Source: an uncultured Bacteroidota bacterium | GTDB taxonomy: Bacteria; Bacteroidota; Bacteroidia; Flavobacteriales; Flavobacteriaceae | Assembly: GCA_902635965.1 (NCBI GenBank) | Contig: CACPQA010000001.1 | Coordinates: forward strand, 1-64,000 | DNA length: 64,000 nucleotides | Reading direction: 5' to 3' | In this document: positions 56,898 to 61,201 of the stretch, in pieces | Position numbering within the stretch: the first letter of the stretch is position 1 | How the letters are laid out: the number at the start of each line of letters is the position of its first letter | Translations under genes and position numbers: made by a program | The notes under the pieces: generated by a model | Told to the model about the DNA's origin: nothing | The model's input: the letters and a program-made list of their open reading frames with translations, nothing else | The model's database searches: none

Positions 56898-57377
56898 TTA
56901 ATCTTTGTTTTTATTTTCGGGTAAAAGTTCTTGGTAAATTATCTTTGTTTTCATGGCCCAATTTAAAAGTGAGTCCTTTTGTTTGTTATCCAATCTGGAT
57001 GAGGTATGAATAAGTTTATAGGATTTTAAAGGCATTTCACCTTCTTCAATCTCTTCAATAAACTCCTCAAGCTTATGTTCTTTCTTTTTCAAAGAGTATT
57101 TATCCCATTTAGAAAAGTTTAAATGTTTTTTTCCTTCATCAATATGATTTTGTATCCACATGGAAACAGGCGAAATATGCGAGTACCAAGGGTAATTTGT
57201 TTTATTTGAGTGACAATCAAAACAAGAGTTTTTCATAATTACTAATAAATGTTTATTTAAGTTTGTTTCTTCAATAAAATAAGCTAAATCGTAATCCTCT
57301 TTATTATTTAGCTTTGGTCTTATAAACTGGATTAGAACTAATATGAATACAAATACCAAAAAAATCTTTCTTTTCAT
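56898..57377 (-). CDS. Haem-binding domain protein (Haem_bd family), exported or membrane-anchored
   Basis: 159 residues. A basic, hydrophobic N-terminus (RKIFLVFVFILVLIQFI, about 3-20) acts as signal or anchor. The body has SCFDCHSNKTNYPWYSHISPVSMW (about 50-73), where CxxCH is a c-type haem motif, the hallmark of the Haem_bd family; EEIEEGEMPLKSYKLIHTSSRL follows. The function of the family is not established; electron transfer or haem handling in the periplasm is likely. It starts 3 bp after the TonB receptor gene, so the two form one operon. Confidence 0.9.
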   Translation of the reverse strand: MKRKIFLVFVFILVLIQFIRPKLNNKEDYDLAYFIEETNLNKHLLVIMKNSCFDCHSNKTNYPWYSHISPVSMWIQNHIDEGKKHLNFSKWDKYSLKKKEHKLEEFIEEIEEGEMPLKSYKLIHTSSRLDNKQKDSLLNWAMKTKIIYQELLPENKNKD

Positions 57378-57380
57378 ATG

Positions 57381-59591
57381 TTAAAATTTATATTCCATAC
57401 CTGCATATATTCCAAATGGGTGACCAGGTCTTAAACCAGCAGGAGCCATCGAAACAGCATACTTTTCATTAAACAGATTTAACATTTTAGAGGTGAAAAT
57501 TAAATTAGAGGCAATGTTCATTCTAAAAGAAATGTCAAATACAAAATATGATGGAATTTCTCTCGTTCCGTCTGCTACTGTTGAAAATTTTCCATTGTAA
57601 TTATTGCTAAAGTTTATTTCGTACTTACTTGTTTGTATGCTAAATGTTGAATTAAATTGATGTTGAGGAATATATGGTATTCTATCTCCATCACTAACTT
57701 CACCCCATATATCTTGAGTACTTCCAAAGTCACTTAAAAATCTTGCATTTGTATGGGTGTAAGATACAGAAAACGGAAAATTAATTTTATTGTTATCAAA
57801 TAATTCAGATTTCAATAAAAATTCAATGCCGTTTACTAGCGCCTTTCCTGCGTTAAAGGGATCAAGTTCACCAAAACCACCGGTCGCTGCTAAATCATTT
57901 CCGAGTAGATTACTATAATTATTTTGATAGGCAATTATTTCTGCATTAATATTATTTATTGAAAACCTACCTCCAAGCTCAAGATTAACACTTTCTTCAG
58001 CTTTTTGACCCTCTGAATTGCCAGGAGGTGAATATCCCTTGTGAATTCCACTAAAAATTGAAAACTTATTATTGAAAGTATAATTAAATCCAATTCCTGG
58101 AATAAACACTGACACACTGTTGTTTCTATATGAAACCTCGTTTAGTTTTCTAAGTGGATTAGACTTTCCATAATCATTTCTCGAAAGCTCTATTGACTCA
58201 TATCTAATTCCAGGAGTAATAGTCAAACCTTTAAATTTATATTTATACATCAAATAGGTTGCAAAAGATTTTGCATAACTAACCCTGTTACCTTGAGCTC
58301 CTGGGCTACCGTAATCTGCAAGTGACATAAAACCATTATTGATATTGTAAATATCTTCCCATTGAAACCTATCCTCTTCATCATAATGTAACCTGAACCC
58401 AATTTCTAAATCATTAAAGGATTTATTTTTTCCATACCAATGATAATCAATTTTTGTTTGTACTCCTCTTGAAATATATTCTCTATTATTAGCTTTAACT
58501 TTTAAAGAATTATTACTTCCATTTAATGTTCCTTTTATAATTGAAAGGTGAGCAGGATATTGAGAGGGATTTTCAATAACTTTTGATATTTTCTGTGAAT
58601 TTCCTTCAAAAACTACATCATCAAGTTTGTACCAATTTCTTTTAAATCCATTGTAATAAAGGTTTGACGAAATTTTAAATTTTTCTGAAAAATCAAATTC
58701 GTGAGTTAACATATATTGATTGTGTTCAGCATTCATTTTATCTTTTTCAGAGGCTGAATATCTTAGGTACGGATTATTATTAAAATCAGATTCGGTTAAT
58801 CCTAAATATGTTTCGTTTGAAACTTCGTCATAAGTATGAAATTTGAATTCTAAACTCTGTTTATTTTTGGCTTTTTCAGATGATTTAAATCTTATTTTAG
58901 AGGTAATTTCGTTGATGTCAAAACCTGTGTTCATGTTATTTCCAAGTGATTTAAATCCATTTGAATTATAATTTAGATACTCTAACATATATCCAAAATT
59001 TTTAGTCTGATTTCCAAAAGTTGAATGTAACTGTCCCGTGTTAAAGCTTCCGTAGCTACTTACAACTTTACCTTTGAATGAATCTGGGATTTCAGTCGAA
59101 ACAAAATTAATAGCACCGCCAGTTGTGTAGGGTCCATACTGAATCTGACTACTCCCTTTAAGTACTTCTACGGCATGCATTCTTGCCACAGAAGGAAAAT
59201 AATAAGCAGATGATGCACTATATGGAGCGGGAGAAATTAATACACCGTCTTCCATTATTGCTATTTTAGAACTTCTCTCAGGCGAAGTGCCTCTGATACT
59301 TATATTAGGTCGTAAACCAAAACCATCTTCTTCGTAAACATTAATTCCAGATATTTTATTAAGAGCACGATTGATATCGGTGTAATTAAATTTTGCAAGC
59401 TCTTCAATGGATAGATAATAAGCAGCGCCAGTTCTATTTTTAGCTACAAATTTACTACCCAAAATGGTGTTGGATTTTATGATTACTTCATCAAGAGATG
59501 TTATTGAATCCTTTTTTATTTGATCTATTGAGTCTTGGCATTTTAAGTATGAACAACTTAAAATAAAAAATATTAAAAATTTTTTTCTCAT
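57381..59591 (-). CDS. FecA-like TonB-dependent outer-membrane receptor
   Basis: 736 residues from ATG 59591, placing MRKKFLIFFILSCSYLKCQ as signal peptide; an open frame to 59705 would prepend 38 hydrophobic residues. The plug domain (about 35-160) has ISGINVYEEDGFGLRPNISIRGTSPERSSKIAIMEDGVLISPAPY and VEVLKGSSQIQYGPYTTGGAINFVS, which resemble the ferric citrate receptor FecA. The rest is a 22-stranded barrel ending in GMEYKF. Import of a ferric chelate is likely. There is no SusD partner and no N-terminal CarboxypepD-like domain. A -7 element at 59624 and a palindrome at 59656 lie upstream. Confidence 0.92.
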   Translation of the reverse strand: MRKKFLIFFILSCSYLKCQDSIDQIKKDSITSLDEVIIKSNTILGSKFVAKNRTGAAYYLSIEELAKFNYTDINRALNKISGINVYEEDGFGLRPNISIRGTSPERSSKIAIMEDGVLISPAPYSASSAYYFPSVARMHAVEVLKGSSQIQYGPYTTGGAINFVSTEIPDSFKGKVVSSYGSFNTGQLHSTFGNQTKNFGYMLEYLNYNSNGFKSLGNNMNTGFDINEITSKIRFKSSEKAKNKQSLEFKFHTYDEVSNETYLGLTESDFNNNPYLRYSASEKDKMNAEHNQYMLTHEFDFSEKFKISSNLYYNGFKRNWYKLDDVVFEGNSQKISKVIENPSQYPAHLSIIKGTLNGSNNSLKVKANNREYISRGVQTKIDYHWYGKNKSFNDLEIGFRLHYDEEDRFQWEDIYNINNGFMSLADYGSPGAQGNRVSYAKSFATYLMYKYKFKGLTITPGIRYESIELSRNDYGKSNPLRKLNEVSYRNNSVSVFIPGIGFNYTFNNKFSIFSGIHKGYSPPGNSEGQKAEESVNLELGGRFSINNINAEIIAYQNNYSNLLGNDLAATGGFGELDPFNAGKALVNGIEFLLKSELFDNNKINFPFSVSYTHTNARFLSDFGSTQDIWGEVSDGDRIPYIPQHQFNSTFSIQTSKYEINFSNNYNGKFSTVADGTREIPSYFVFDISFRMNIASNLIFTSKMLNLFNEKYAVSMAPAGLRPGHPFGIYAGMEYKF

Positions 59592-59623
59592 GTTATTTAT
59601 AATTGGTCTAAATAAATTTAAAG

Positions 59624-59655: not shown

Positions 59656-59678
59656 TTATTTAGAATAATTCTAAATAA
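59656..59678. promoter_or_regulatory. Perfect 23-bp palindrome, probable metal-responsive operator (site 1)
   Basis: Two 11-bp arms, TTATTTAGAAT and ATTCTAAATAA, flank a single central A, with no mismatch. The pattern, with TTTAG and CTAAA half-sites around a short AT core, resembles operators of Fur or DtxR/MntR-type metal repressors; which family binds cannot be told from the site. It lies 65 bp before the receptor start. An additional half-site (TTATTTAGA on the minus strand) lies at 59607-59615. Confidence 0.65.
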
Positions 59679-59824: not shown

Positions 59825-60055
59825 TTATGCCCAGGAAAAACACAACATTCCCTCTGCAGCTAAATTAGGATTTGGACAACTTTGGGTATTGAAGTTTTTA
59901 CAATTAGAACAATTTGAATTTTTTGTTAAAGCTTGTTTAAAAATATGATCAGAACATACTTTATCTACATCTACTTCTATATTATGTTTTGAACAATCAA
60001 AAGTAGAGGTTATATTTTCACAATTTAAACAAGACGTTATTGATTTAACTTCCAT
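59825..60055 (-). CDS. Small cysteine-rich protein with duplicated four-cysteine module
   Basis: 76 residues from ATG 60055 (TTG 60073 is the longer alternative). No signal peptide or membrane segment, so it is probably cytoplasmic. Eight cysteines lie at 9, 12, 21, 34, 49, 52, 60 and 72, forming two units C-x2-C-x8-C-x12-C and C-x2-C-x7-C-x11-C; each begins C-x-N-C-x-N (CLNCEN, CSNCKN). This looks like an internal duplication of a metal-binding knuckle that could hold zinc or an iron-sulfur cluster. His24 and His37 are extra ligand candidates. I know of similar flavobacterial hypothetical proteins but no function. Two copies of the receptor operator lie upstream. Confidence 0.78.
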   Translation of the reverse strand: MEVKSITSCLNCENITSTFDCSKHNIEVDVDKVCSDHIFKQALTKNSNCSNCKNFNTQSCPNPNLAAEGMLCFSWA

Positions 60056-60070
60056 AATTAAAATTTTAAA

Positions 60071-60078
60071 CAAATCTA
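60071..60078 (-). promoter_or_regulatory. Putative -7 promoter element of the Cys-rich gene
   Basis: On the minus strand TAGATTTG matches TAnnTTTG, 15 bp before ATG 60055. Operator-like site 2 (60091-60110) begins 12 bp upstream of it. Confidence 0.5.
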
Positions 60079-60090
60079 AGTTTAATTACG

Positions 60091-60110
60091 TTTAGAATAA
60101 ATATAAATAA
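60091..60110. promoter_or_regulatory. Operator-like site 2 upstream of the Cys-rich gene
   Basis: TTTAGAATAAATATAAATAA matches positions 4-23 of the perfect palindrome at 59656 in 18 of 20 bases, differing at two bases of the right arm. It lies over the -33 region of the Cys-rich gene promoter. The matching base count was made by eye, and the region is AT-rich, so chance similarity is possible. Confidence 0.45.
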
Positions 60111-60127
60111 CTGTTAATCAATAATTT

Positions 60128-60150
60128 GTATTTAGATTAATTAAAAATAA
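60128..60150. promoter_or_regulatory. Operator-like site 3 upstream of the Cys-rich gene
   Basis: This 23-bp stretch matches the palindrome at 59656 in 19 of 23 positions (left arm GTATTTAGATT, centre A, right arm ATTAAAAATAA). It lies 18 bp upstream of site 2, close to two helical turns centre to centre with it, and just after the stop of the HExxH lipoprotein gene. AT-rich background lowers confidence. Confidence 0.4.
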
Positions 60151-60157
60151 AATATTC

Positions 60158-61201
60158 CTAGTCAACAATAATATTATATCTTGTTTTATCTGCCTCACAG
60201 TCAAAGTTTACTTGGTTAACTCCTAGAAACATTCTACTCGAGGCCTTTTTGAATCCATAATATTTTTGAGGGTCTAGTGAGTCCGGTACTACTAAATTGA
60301 GATTTTCTCTACAGCTTTCATTAAACTCACTATTGGATGTATACATAATGTCGTATCTATTACAAACATGTTTTAAATTTAATGCATCGTGACCTAGTTC
60401 ATGATACATTAAGTCAAACCTTCTCATAACAGATTCTTGTTTCCAGTAACTCTCTTTTAGTTCTATAATTATATCTTCATTACACACTCTTTTTGCAACA
60501 CCAATCGCACTGCCTCTTTCCCATACGTCATCGTTAATTATAGAAATTATCATTTCCTTATAATCAATTTGCACTTCTAAATCAGACGCATCTCTAAAAA
60601 ATGCAGTTGCATAATCATTCGGGTCTTGTAAGTCTAGGTCCTCATAGTTAGGATCAATTCTATAGTCAACATCATCAGGACAAGATTCTATTTCTGAGGA
60701 GTTAAAGATATATCCAAGAGAGGTAGATTCTATTTCATCCAAATCAGGGTTGGTATAAATATTTTTTTTGGTCAGATATAAATTATTTTTATCAAAAAAA
60801 AGAGAATACTCTATAACTCCCTTTTTTTTGTAATTTTCAATCCAATCAGTTTTAAATGCATATCCCTGTCCATTATTTTGTAATAATCTAAAATCTTCTC
60901 TTAAGTTTATTATCTCAGTTTGCCAGCAATTTATCTTACTATATTTATTTTCCTGTATACTTAAGGACAAATCATTCAAATTAAAATTTATGATTACCTT
61001 TCTATCATTCAAAGTGAATTGATATTTTGACTGAACCCTTTCAAAAAAATAATTATAATTTATCTCTGGAACTACAACAGTTTTTTCATCAGTATCCTTG
61101 GAGCAGCCAATAATTAAAAGCGAGAATATTGCAAAATAAATACTCCTCAGATATTTACTGGGAATTAAAACAATTATATTTTTGCAAGCCATACTTTTCA
61201 T
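60158..61201 (-). CDS. Putative zinc metallopeptidase lipoprotein
   Basis: 347 residues from ATG 61201 (TTG 61213 or ATG 61192 are alternatives). The export signal ends in a lipobox, LLIIGC, at about residue 33. The C-terminal part has HELGHDALNLKH near residue 267: H-E-x-x-H plus a third histidine seven positions after the second, one residue further than the metzincin HExxHxxGxxH, and DIMYTS follows where a Met-turn would sit. An N-terminal ~170 residues shows beta-like strands typical of lipocalin-like flavobacterial domains, without a recognised family. Several cysteines may form disulfides. A protease function is likely but not proven. Confidence 0.72.
   Translation of the reverse strand: MKSMACKNIIVLIPSKYLRSIYFAIFSLLIIGCSKDTDEKTVVVPEINYNYFFERVQSKYQFTLNDRKVIINFNLNDLSLSIQENKYSKINCWQTEIINLREDFRLLQNNGQGYAFKTDWIENYKKKGVIEYSLFFDKNNLYLTKKNIYTNPDLDEIESTSLGYIFNSSEIESCPDDVDYRIDPNYEDLDLQDPNDYATAFFRDASDLEVQIDYKEMIISIINDDVWERGSAIGVAKRVCNEDIIIELKESYWKQESVMRRFDLMYHELGHDALNLKHVCNRYDIMYTSNSEFNESCRENLNLVVPDSLDPQKYYGFKKASSRMFLGVNQVNFDCEADKTRYNIIVD

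Follow-up and report, generated by a model that had tools for sequence, protein, structure and literature searches.

The small Fe-S proteins Bfd, FhuF and FeoC assist iron metabolism: they are cytoplasmic, contain cysteines and have ties to iron starvation or to iron uptake, and two of them, Bfd and FhuF, release iron by electron transfer. Marine Bacteroidetes inhabit iron-poor water, and to our knowledge the handling of imported iron inside their cells is hardly known. HiPIPs, which hold a [4Fe-4S] cluster between four cysteines, are exported, periplasmic proteins. The smallest HiPIP is PioC of Rhodopseudomonas palustris (PDB 6XYV), a single-module periplasmic electron carrier in which Cys22, Cys25, Cys34 and Cys47 bind the [4Fe-4S] cluster (PMC7462912). 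The small subunit of 4-hydroxyphenylacetate decarboxylase (HPAD; PDB 2Y8N/2YAJ) has a HiPIP-like fold as well, and is a cytoplasmic protein of 9.5 kDa with two [4Fe-4S] clusters (PMC12358834). For regulation by iron, a study of Riemerella gives a 19-bp Fur box, ATTTAGAATTATTCTAAAT (ATTTAGAATnATTCTAAAT), reports Fur binding of box-containing promoters by EMSA, and places a TonB/HTTM/imelysin operon among the genes regulated by Fur under iron restriction (PMC5609570).

The window, by which we mean the whole analysed stretch of 64,000 nucleotides, encodes a 76-residue protein with eight cysteines, here called CYS8, next to a receptor operon (Table 1). A preliminary description, made from the DNA letters, had seen in it two similar four-cysteine units each opening with C-x-N-C-x-N, and the translation agrees: the cysteines lie at residues 9, 12, 21 and 34 (module 1) and at 49, 52, 60 and 72 (module 2), and both modules open with that motif. 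When the sequence was shuffled 200,000 times, two C-x2-C-x7/8-C-x11/12-C units arose in only 1 case, and among the 167 long frames of the window no other has even one such unit. CYS8 also lacks an export signal, as had been stated, because its N-terminus is without a hydrophobic stretch and the first cysteine is already residue 9.

Table 1. Features of the CYS8 locus, with positions in the 64-kb window.
Feature	Position	Strand	Evidence or remark
CYS8, 76-aa eight-cysteine protein, MEVKSITSCLNCENITSTFDCSKHNIEVDVDKVCSDHIFKQALTKNSNCSNCKNFNTQSCPNPNLAAEGMLCFSWA	59825..60055 (stop codon included)	minus	translation; homologues with eight invariant Cys
Module 1, residues 9-37, C-x2-C-x8-C-x12-C	59945..60031	minus	PioC spacing; profile test; stand-alone versions
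Module 2, residues 49-75, C-x2-C-x7-C-x11-C-x2-W, W75 invariant	59831..59911	minus	alignments
Predicted operator site A, ATTTTTAATTAATCTAAAT (gene strand), upstream half of twin	60130..60148	minus	3 mismatches to Fur box
Predicted operator site B, ATTTATATTTATTCTAAAC (gene strand)	60090..60108	minus	3 mismatches to Fur box
Predicted -7 promoter element TAGATTTG (TAnnTTTG)	60071..60078	minus	TAnnTTT fixed there in 51/62 non-redundant relatives
Exact Fur box ATTTAGAATAATTCTAAAT upstream of receptor gene	59658..59676	.	only exact match in genome
Weaker Fur-box-like site upstream of receptor gene	59595..59613	.	3 mismatches
TonB-dependent receptor, nearest solved relative FecA (ferric dicitrate)	57381..59591	minus	Pfam and PDB comparison
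Haem_bd (PF14376) protein, downstream of receptor	56898..57377	minus	Pfam

CYS8 is an undescribed conserved family that is widespread in marine Bacteroidetes, and the label "orphan" which the protein had been given is wrong. Protein searches of a sample of 397 genomes from the same family found relatives in 62 (65 with a profile), and there were relatives in 24 of 296 genomes of the order sample and in 8 of 395 of the phylum sample. Another 80 loci came from scanning named genomes, among them Maribacter, Aquimarina, Lacinutrix, Nonlabens, Dokdonia, Leeuwenhoekiella and Cyclobacterium. Plasmids yielded one homologue (Aureibacter pAT1, Cytophagales, annotated as 'hypothetical protein') and the viral contigs searched yielded none. 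The preliminary description had staked its reading on conservation of the cysteines, and all eight, together with W75, are invariant in two alignments (27 and 65 members). The larger of these also has H24 without exception, the smaller nearly so, and residue 37 is F in most relatives and H in the window protein. The claim that this arrangement has no described function also stands. Pfam, NCBIfam and PHROGs hold no family matching CYS8, a search of the literature turned up no Fur-regulated, cysteine-rich small protein described from Bacteroidetes, and the PDB has no true match. The single match of the PDB profile search, neuropsin, was rejected as due to chance.

The explanation that we tentatively prefer is that CYS8 is a cytoplasmic metalloprotein of iron shortage with HiPIP-like [4Fe-4S] modules, serving as a small electron carrier in the release of imported iron. 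The protein would be made when iron is short, and each four-cysteine module would be a minimal HiPIP-like site, most likely holding one [4Fe-4S] cluster. CYS8 would then act where ferric iron uptake ends in the cytoplasm, donating electrons to the imported Fe(III) or Fe(III) chelate and so leading to reduction and release inside the cell. Such a role would parallel that of Bfd and FhuF by other folds; Bfd, FhuF and FeoC differ from CYS8 in fold, cysteine pattern and cluster, and a Pfam scan of CYS8 gave no match to any of the three. The earlier proposal, in which an Fe-S protein or metal handler in the cytoplasm cooperates with the uptake system, is still the best reading: its linkage to iron uptake is borne out, and cofactor and role are the inferred part.

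The resemblance to HiPIPs is carried mainly by module 1. Its spacing (x2/x8/x12) is identical to that of PioC, which has about the length of one module, and it fits the HiPIP pattern C-x2-C-x8..16-C-x12..14-C; module 2 (x2/x7/x11) is one residue short of HiPIPs in two gaps. Against HiPIP profiles, module 1 scored above all column shuffles (0/300, in two sets of 150), and against a larger HiPIP profile none of 100 shuffles was as good. Its score is about as high as the one that the HPAD small subunit reaches with its C-terminal half. Module 2 is marginal, since Cys-fixed shuffles were as good in 6/150, 3/150 and 5/100 cases (approximately 4-5%). A one-to-one E-value of 1e-4 would not be significant at the scale of a database-wide search, and the HiPIP sequences were fetched with a self-written short HiPIP-like peptide that is itself no evidence. 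In HiPIPs the second or third residue after the fourth cysteine is conserved as aromatic (PMC7462912). PioC has such a residue at Cys4+3, and in the CYS8 family this position is aromatic always in module 2 (W75) and mostly in module 1, where the window protein has H37.

The HPAD small subunit resembles CYS8 in being cytoplasmic and of about 9 kDa, and one of its halves has CxNC-K-N as module 2 does. However, its cysteine spacings are longer, it is bound to a glycyl radical enzyme and it has no known link to iron uptake; an HPAD-type decarboxylase is absent among the identified neighbours of CYS8. Compared with PioC, CYS8 has two modules, is cytoplasmic and lies beside iron uptake genes. Several points count against the HiPIP-like reading: 27 CYS8 members gave no match to Pfam HIPIP (PF01355) at E <= 1, the HPAD small subunit model NF033716 had no match either (the best being one member at E 0.13), module 2 is marginal, the Trp that precedes the fourth cysteine in PioC and other HiPIPs is missing (Cys4-1 is not aromatic in the CYS8 modules), and CYS8 is not exported, unlike HiPIPs. 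Structure models from an alignment of 65 rows and from one of 73 rows reached AlphaFold pLDDT values of 47 and 49, which are not interpretable, and Foldseek with the second model found no PDB fit. As PioC too is without clear secondary structure (PMC7462912), these low values decide nothing, and a poor model may be expected where the fold of the chain depends on its cluster.

A somewhat unlikely alternative is that the modules each bind a single Zn or Fe(Cys)4, which would make CYS8 a buffer, a chaperone or a structural zinc protein induced by iron shortage. Many proteins hold Zn or a mononuclear Fe in four-cysteine sites, and weak zinc-ribbon matches appear in a few CYS8 members. Furthermore, the CX2CXnCXnC motif of MASS-delta binds one Fe ion (PMC12358834). 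However, the gap of 11-12 residues between Cys3 and Cys4 is not the CxxC knuckle of rubredoxin and zinc ribbons, which have two CxxC per site where CYS8 has one conserved CxxC per module (27 and 65 members). The spacing that module 1 has in common with PioC, and the lower scores of its Cys-fixed shuffles against HiPIP, also argue for a cluster rather than a single metal.

Single modules also occur on their own. Six small genomes of the family have only a protein of 40-46 aa that corresponds to module 1; its pattern is C-x2-C-x8-C-x12-C, from which two of the six deviate by one residue, and no decayed second half was seen 3' of these genes in any downstream frame. Several of them have upstream sites near the Fur consensus (2 mismatches), two have the 40-bp site pair described below, one is located in an FbpABC operon and another adjoins a TonB/HTTM/imelysin operon. 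Some of these forms thus occupy the kinds of iron locus in which CYS8 is found, so a single module seems to suffice, and the double-module CYS8 may be an extension of the single-module form. The preliminary description had suggested duplication of a short metal-binding unit; the stand-alone modules fit this idea, although a profile comparison of modules 1 and 2 shows only a weak likeness.

The control region of CYS8 carries Fur-box-like sites. A scan of the window with the Riemerella consensus (<=3 mismatches) gave only four Fur-box matches, all in the two intergenic regions flanking CYS8, where 0.70 were expected, and none of 100 shuffles reached four. These matches, upstream of CYS8 and of the receptor gene, bear out the shared operator-like sites noticed earlier. 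Upstream of CYS8, site B lies exactly 40 bp from site A and overlaps the expected -33 region; the sites are at -53 and -93 relative to the start, thus within approximately 100 bp, and are conserved in relatives. Relatives have two upstream sites near -100 and -60, and the 40-bp offset is kept in 72 of the 85 loci with both. In an ungapped alignment of 66 CYS8 promoters, a conserved 59-bp element, whose spacer is partly conserved, precedes TA-n-n-T at a fixed distance; read further, this becomes TAnnTTT in 51 of 62 non-redundant relatives, and TAnnTTT is the core of the Bacteroidetes -7 box. Sites A and B of the twin element (60071-60148 and relatives) are roughly inverted copies of each other.

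The twin element is conserved across the phylum. Allowing <=3 mismatches, the 59-bp element occurs in 23 of 32 whole genomes, once in each and always upstream of CYS8, and the reversed pattern is found in none of the 32. A Fur box with <=4 mismatches lies upstream of 74% of CYS8 genes compared to 4% of other genes, and 65% of the CYS8 loci without a nearby iron gene still have one. CYS8 is a stand-alone unit whose promoter is kept when the neighbours change. These patterns suggest that Fur (or another iron regulator) may bind the CYS8 promoter, and that CYS8 would then be regulated by iron and made in iron starvation. The genome encodes one Fur and one DtxR-type gene. In the rest of the genome, 20 Fur-box-like places compare with 13 for the reversed pattern, so these other sites mostly resemble noise. 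One of them lies upstream of a gene adjoining a ferrochelatase-like gene.

Both the exclusive position of the twin element, which suits autoregulation or a dedicated circuit, and the promoter that stays with the gene as neighbours change would also fit CYS8 as an iron or Fe-S sensor or regulator, with cluster occupancy altering its contact with Fur, a transporter or its own promoter. We consider this unlikely, as a DNA-binding fold is not recognised in CYS8, the single-module form has only 40-46 aa, and the Fur-like boxes account for the promoter without self-binding.

CYS8 is tied to iron uptake by its position as well as by its Fur-box-like promoter. In the window, CYS8 is followed downstream by the TonB receptor and then by the Haem_bd gene, and the relationship of this receptor to FecA agrees with the iron-type receptor first proposed. 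Gene maps of 134 CYS8 loci, with verified domain names, show a TonB receptor, HTTM, imelysin and DUF4856 in one operon as recurring partners, the HTTM partner carrying the lumenal domain of vitamin K-dependent carboxylase. Other recurring partners are FbpA-FbpB-FbpC, PepSY_TM and Haem_bd. Within 5 kb, a TonB receptor is found at 26/52 CYS8 loci compared to 3/40 control regions (p 1e-5), HTTM at 18/52 compared to 0/40 (p 8e-6) and imelysin at 15/52 compared to 0/40 (p 9e-5); the controls were placed at fixed, arbitrarily chosen positions and come from many of the genomes that also supplied the loci, and the p-values are too small because the CYS8 loci are related. Linkage to metal uptake in related genomes, on which the preliminary description had also made its reading depend, is thus present. 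The arrangement changes repeatedly, with the receptor operon on either side, Fbp or PepSY, and this favours function over one frozen location. Some copies of CYS8 stand among unrelated genes. 'FbpC' alone was left out as evidence because its model also picks up other ABC ATPases, with matches in 4 of the 40 control regions.

The RAYM_09779-09794 operon of Riemerella is of the same type as the one that adjoins CYS8 in many Flavobacteriaceae and shares its Fur-box consensus; no CYS8-like protein was seen in the parts of that study covered here (PMC5609570). A Fur-box-like site (<=4 mismatches) was seen upstream of all 36 DUF4856 genes examined, which suggests that the whole DUF4856/imelysin/HTTM/receptor operon is under Fur control in these bacteria.

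In several genomes, CYS8 lies immediately 3' of FbpC of an FbpABC-like transporter, on the same strand, or of a PepSY_TM gene. HPAD-gamma and BSS-gamma are HiPIP-like small subunits on which their partners depend for soluble expression (PMC12358834). Together, these points would fit CYS8 as a small accessory protein with structural clusters that lends stability to a transporter or reductase (the FbpC-like ATPase or PepSY_TM protein), but such a role is very unlikely given that the partner gene differs between loci and is often absent, and that many CYS8 loci have no adjacent transporter gene. Nothing favours the anti-sigma-like partner that had also been suggested, as none of the identified neighbours was recognised as a sigma or anti-sigma gene.

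Returning to the electron carrier with HiPIP-like modules, it is possible, and we put it cautiously, that CYS8 represents a new class of iron-starvation proteins: cytoplasmic, built of one or two 40-residue HiPIP-like modules, under a dedicated phylum-wide twin operator, and passing electrons to imported iron or sensing it. The family is in any case a concrete candidate for iron handling with a strong regulatory signature, and the twin operator with its 40-bp spacing lends itself to a clean test of Fur-type control in the phylum. If the modules hold [4Fe-4S], few natural Fe-S proteins would be smaller than the 40-residue single-module form, which would then be useful for modelling the origin and duplication of such folds.

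Other neighbours of CYS8 were also observed. GuaB (IMP dehydrogenase) lies next to CYS8 in many genomes and is found within 5 kb of 22/52 CYS8 loci compared to 0/40 control regions, but a functional link was rejected, as guaB may point either way and many CYS8 copies have no guaB beside them; the adjacency is probably a conserved chromosomal position. Upstream of CYS8, 60158-61156 encodes a putative lipoprotein with a metzincin-like zinc motif, HELGHDALNLKH, for which Pfam matches are sub-threshold only (Matrixin, E 0.04), and which adjoins CYS8 only in the window and its closest relatives. Two of the CYS8 copies that stand among unrelated genes, in distant genomes, adjoin a peroxidase-family gene (PF00141, KatG-like). 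At six loci, CYS8 is adjoined by a cluster of an imelysin, a protein of approximately 467 aa and a second imelysin, which is perhaps an imelysin and haem oxidoreductase cassette.
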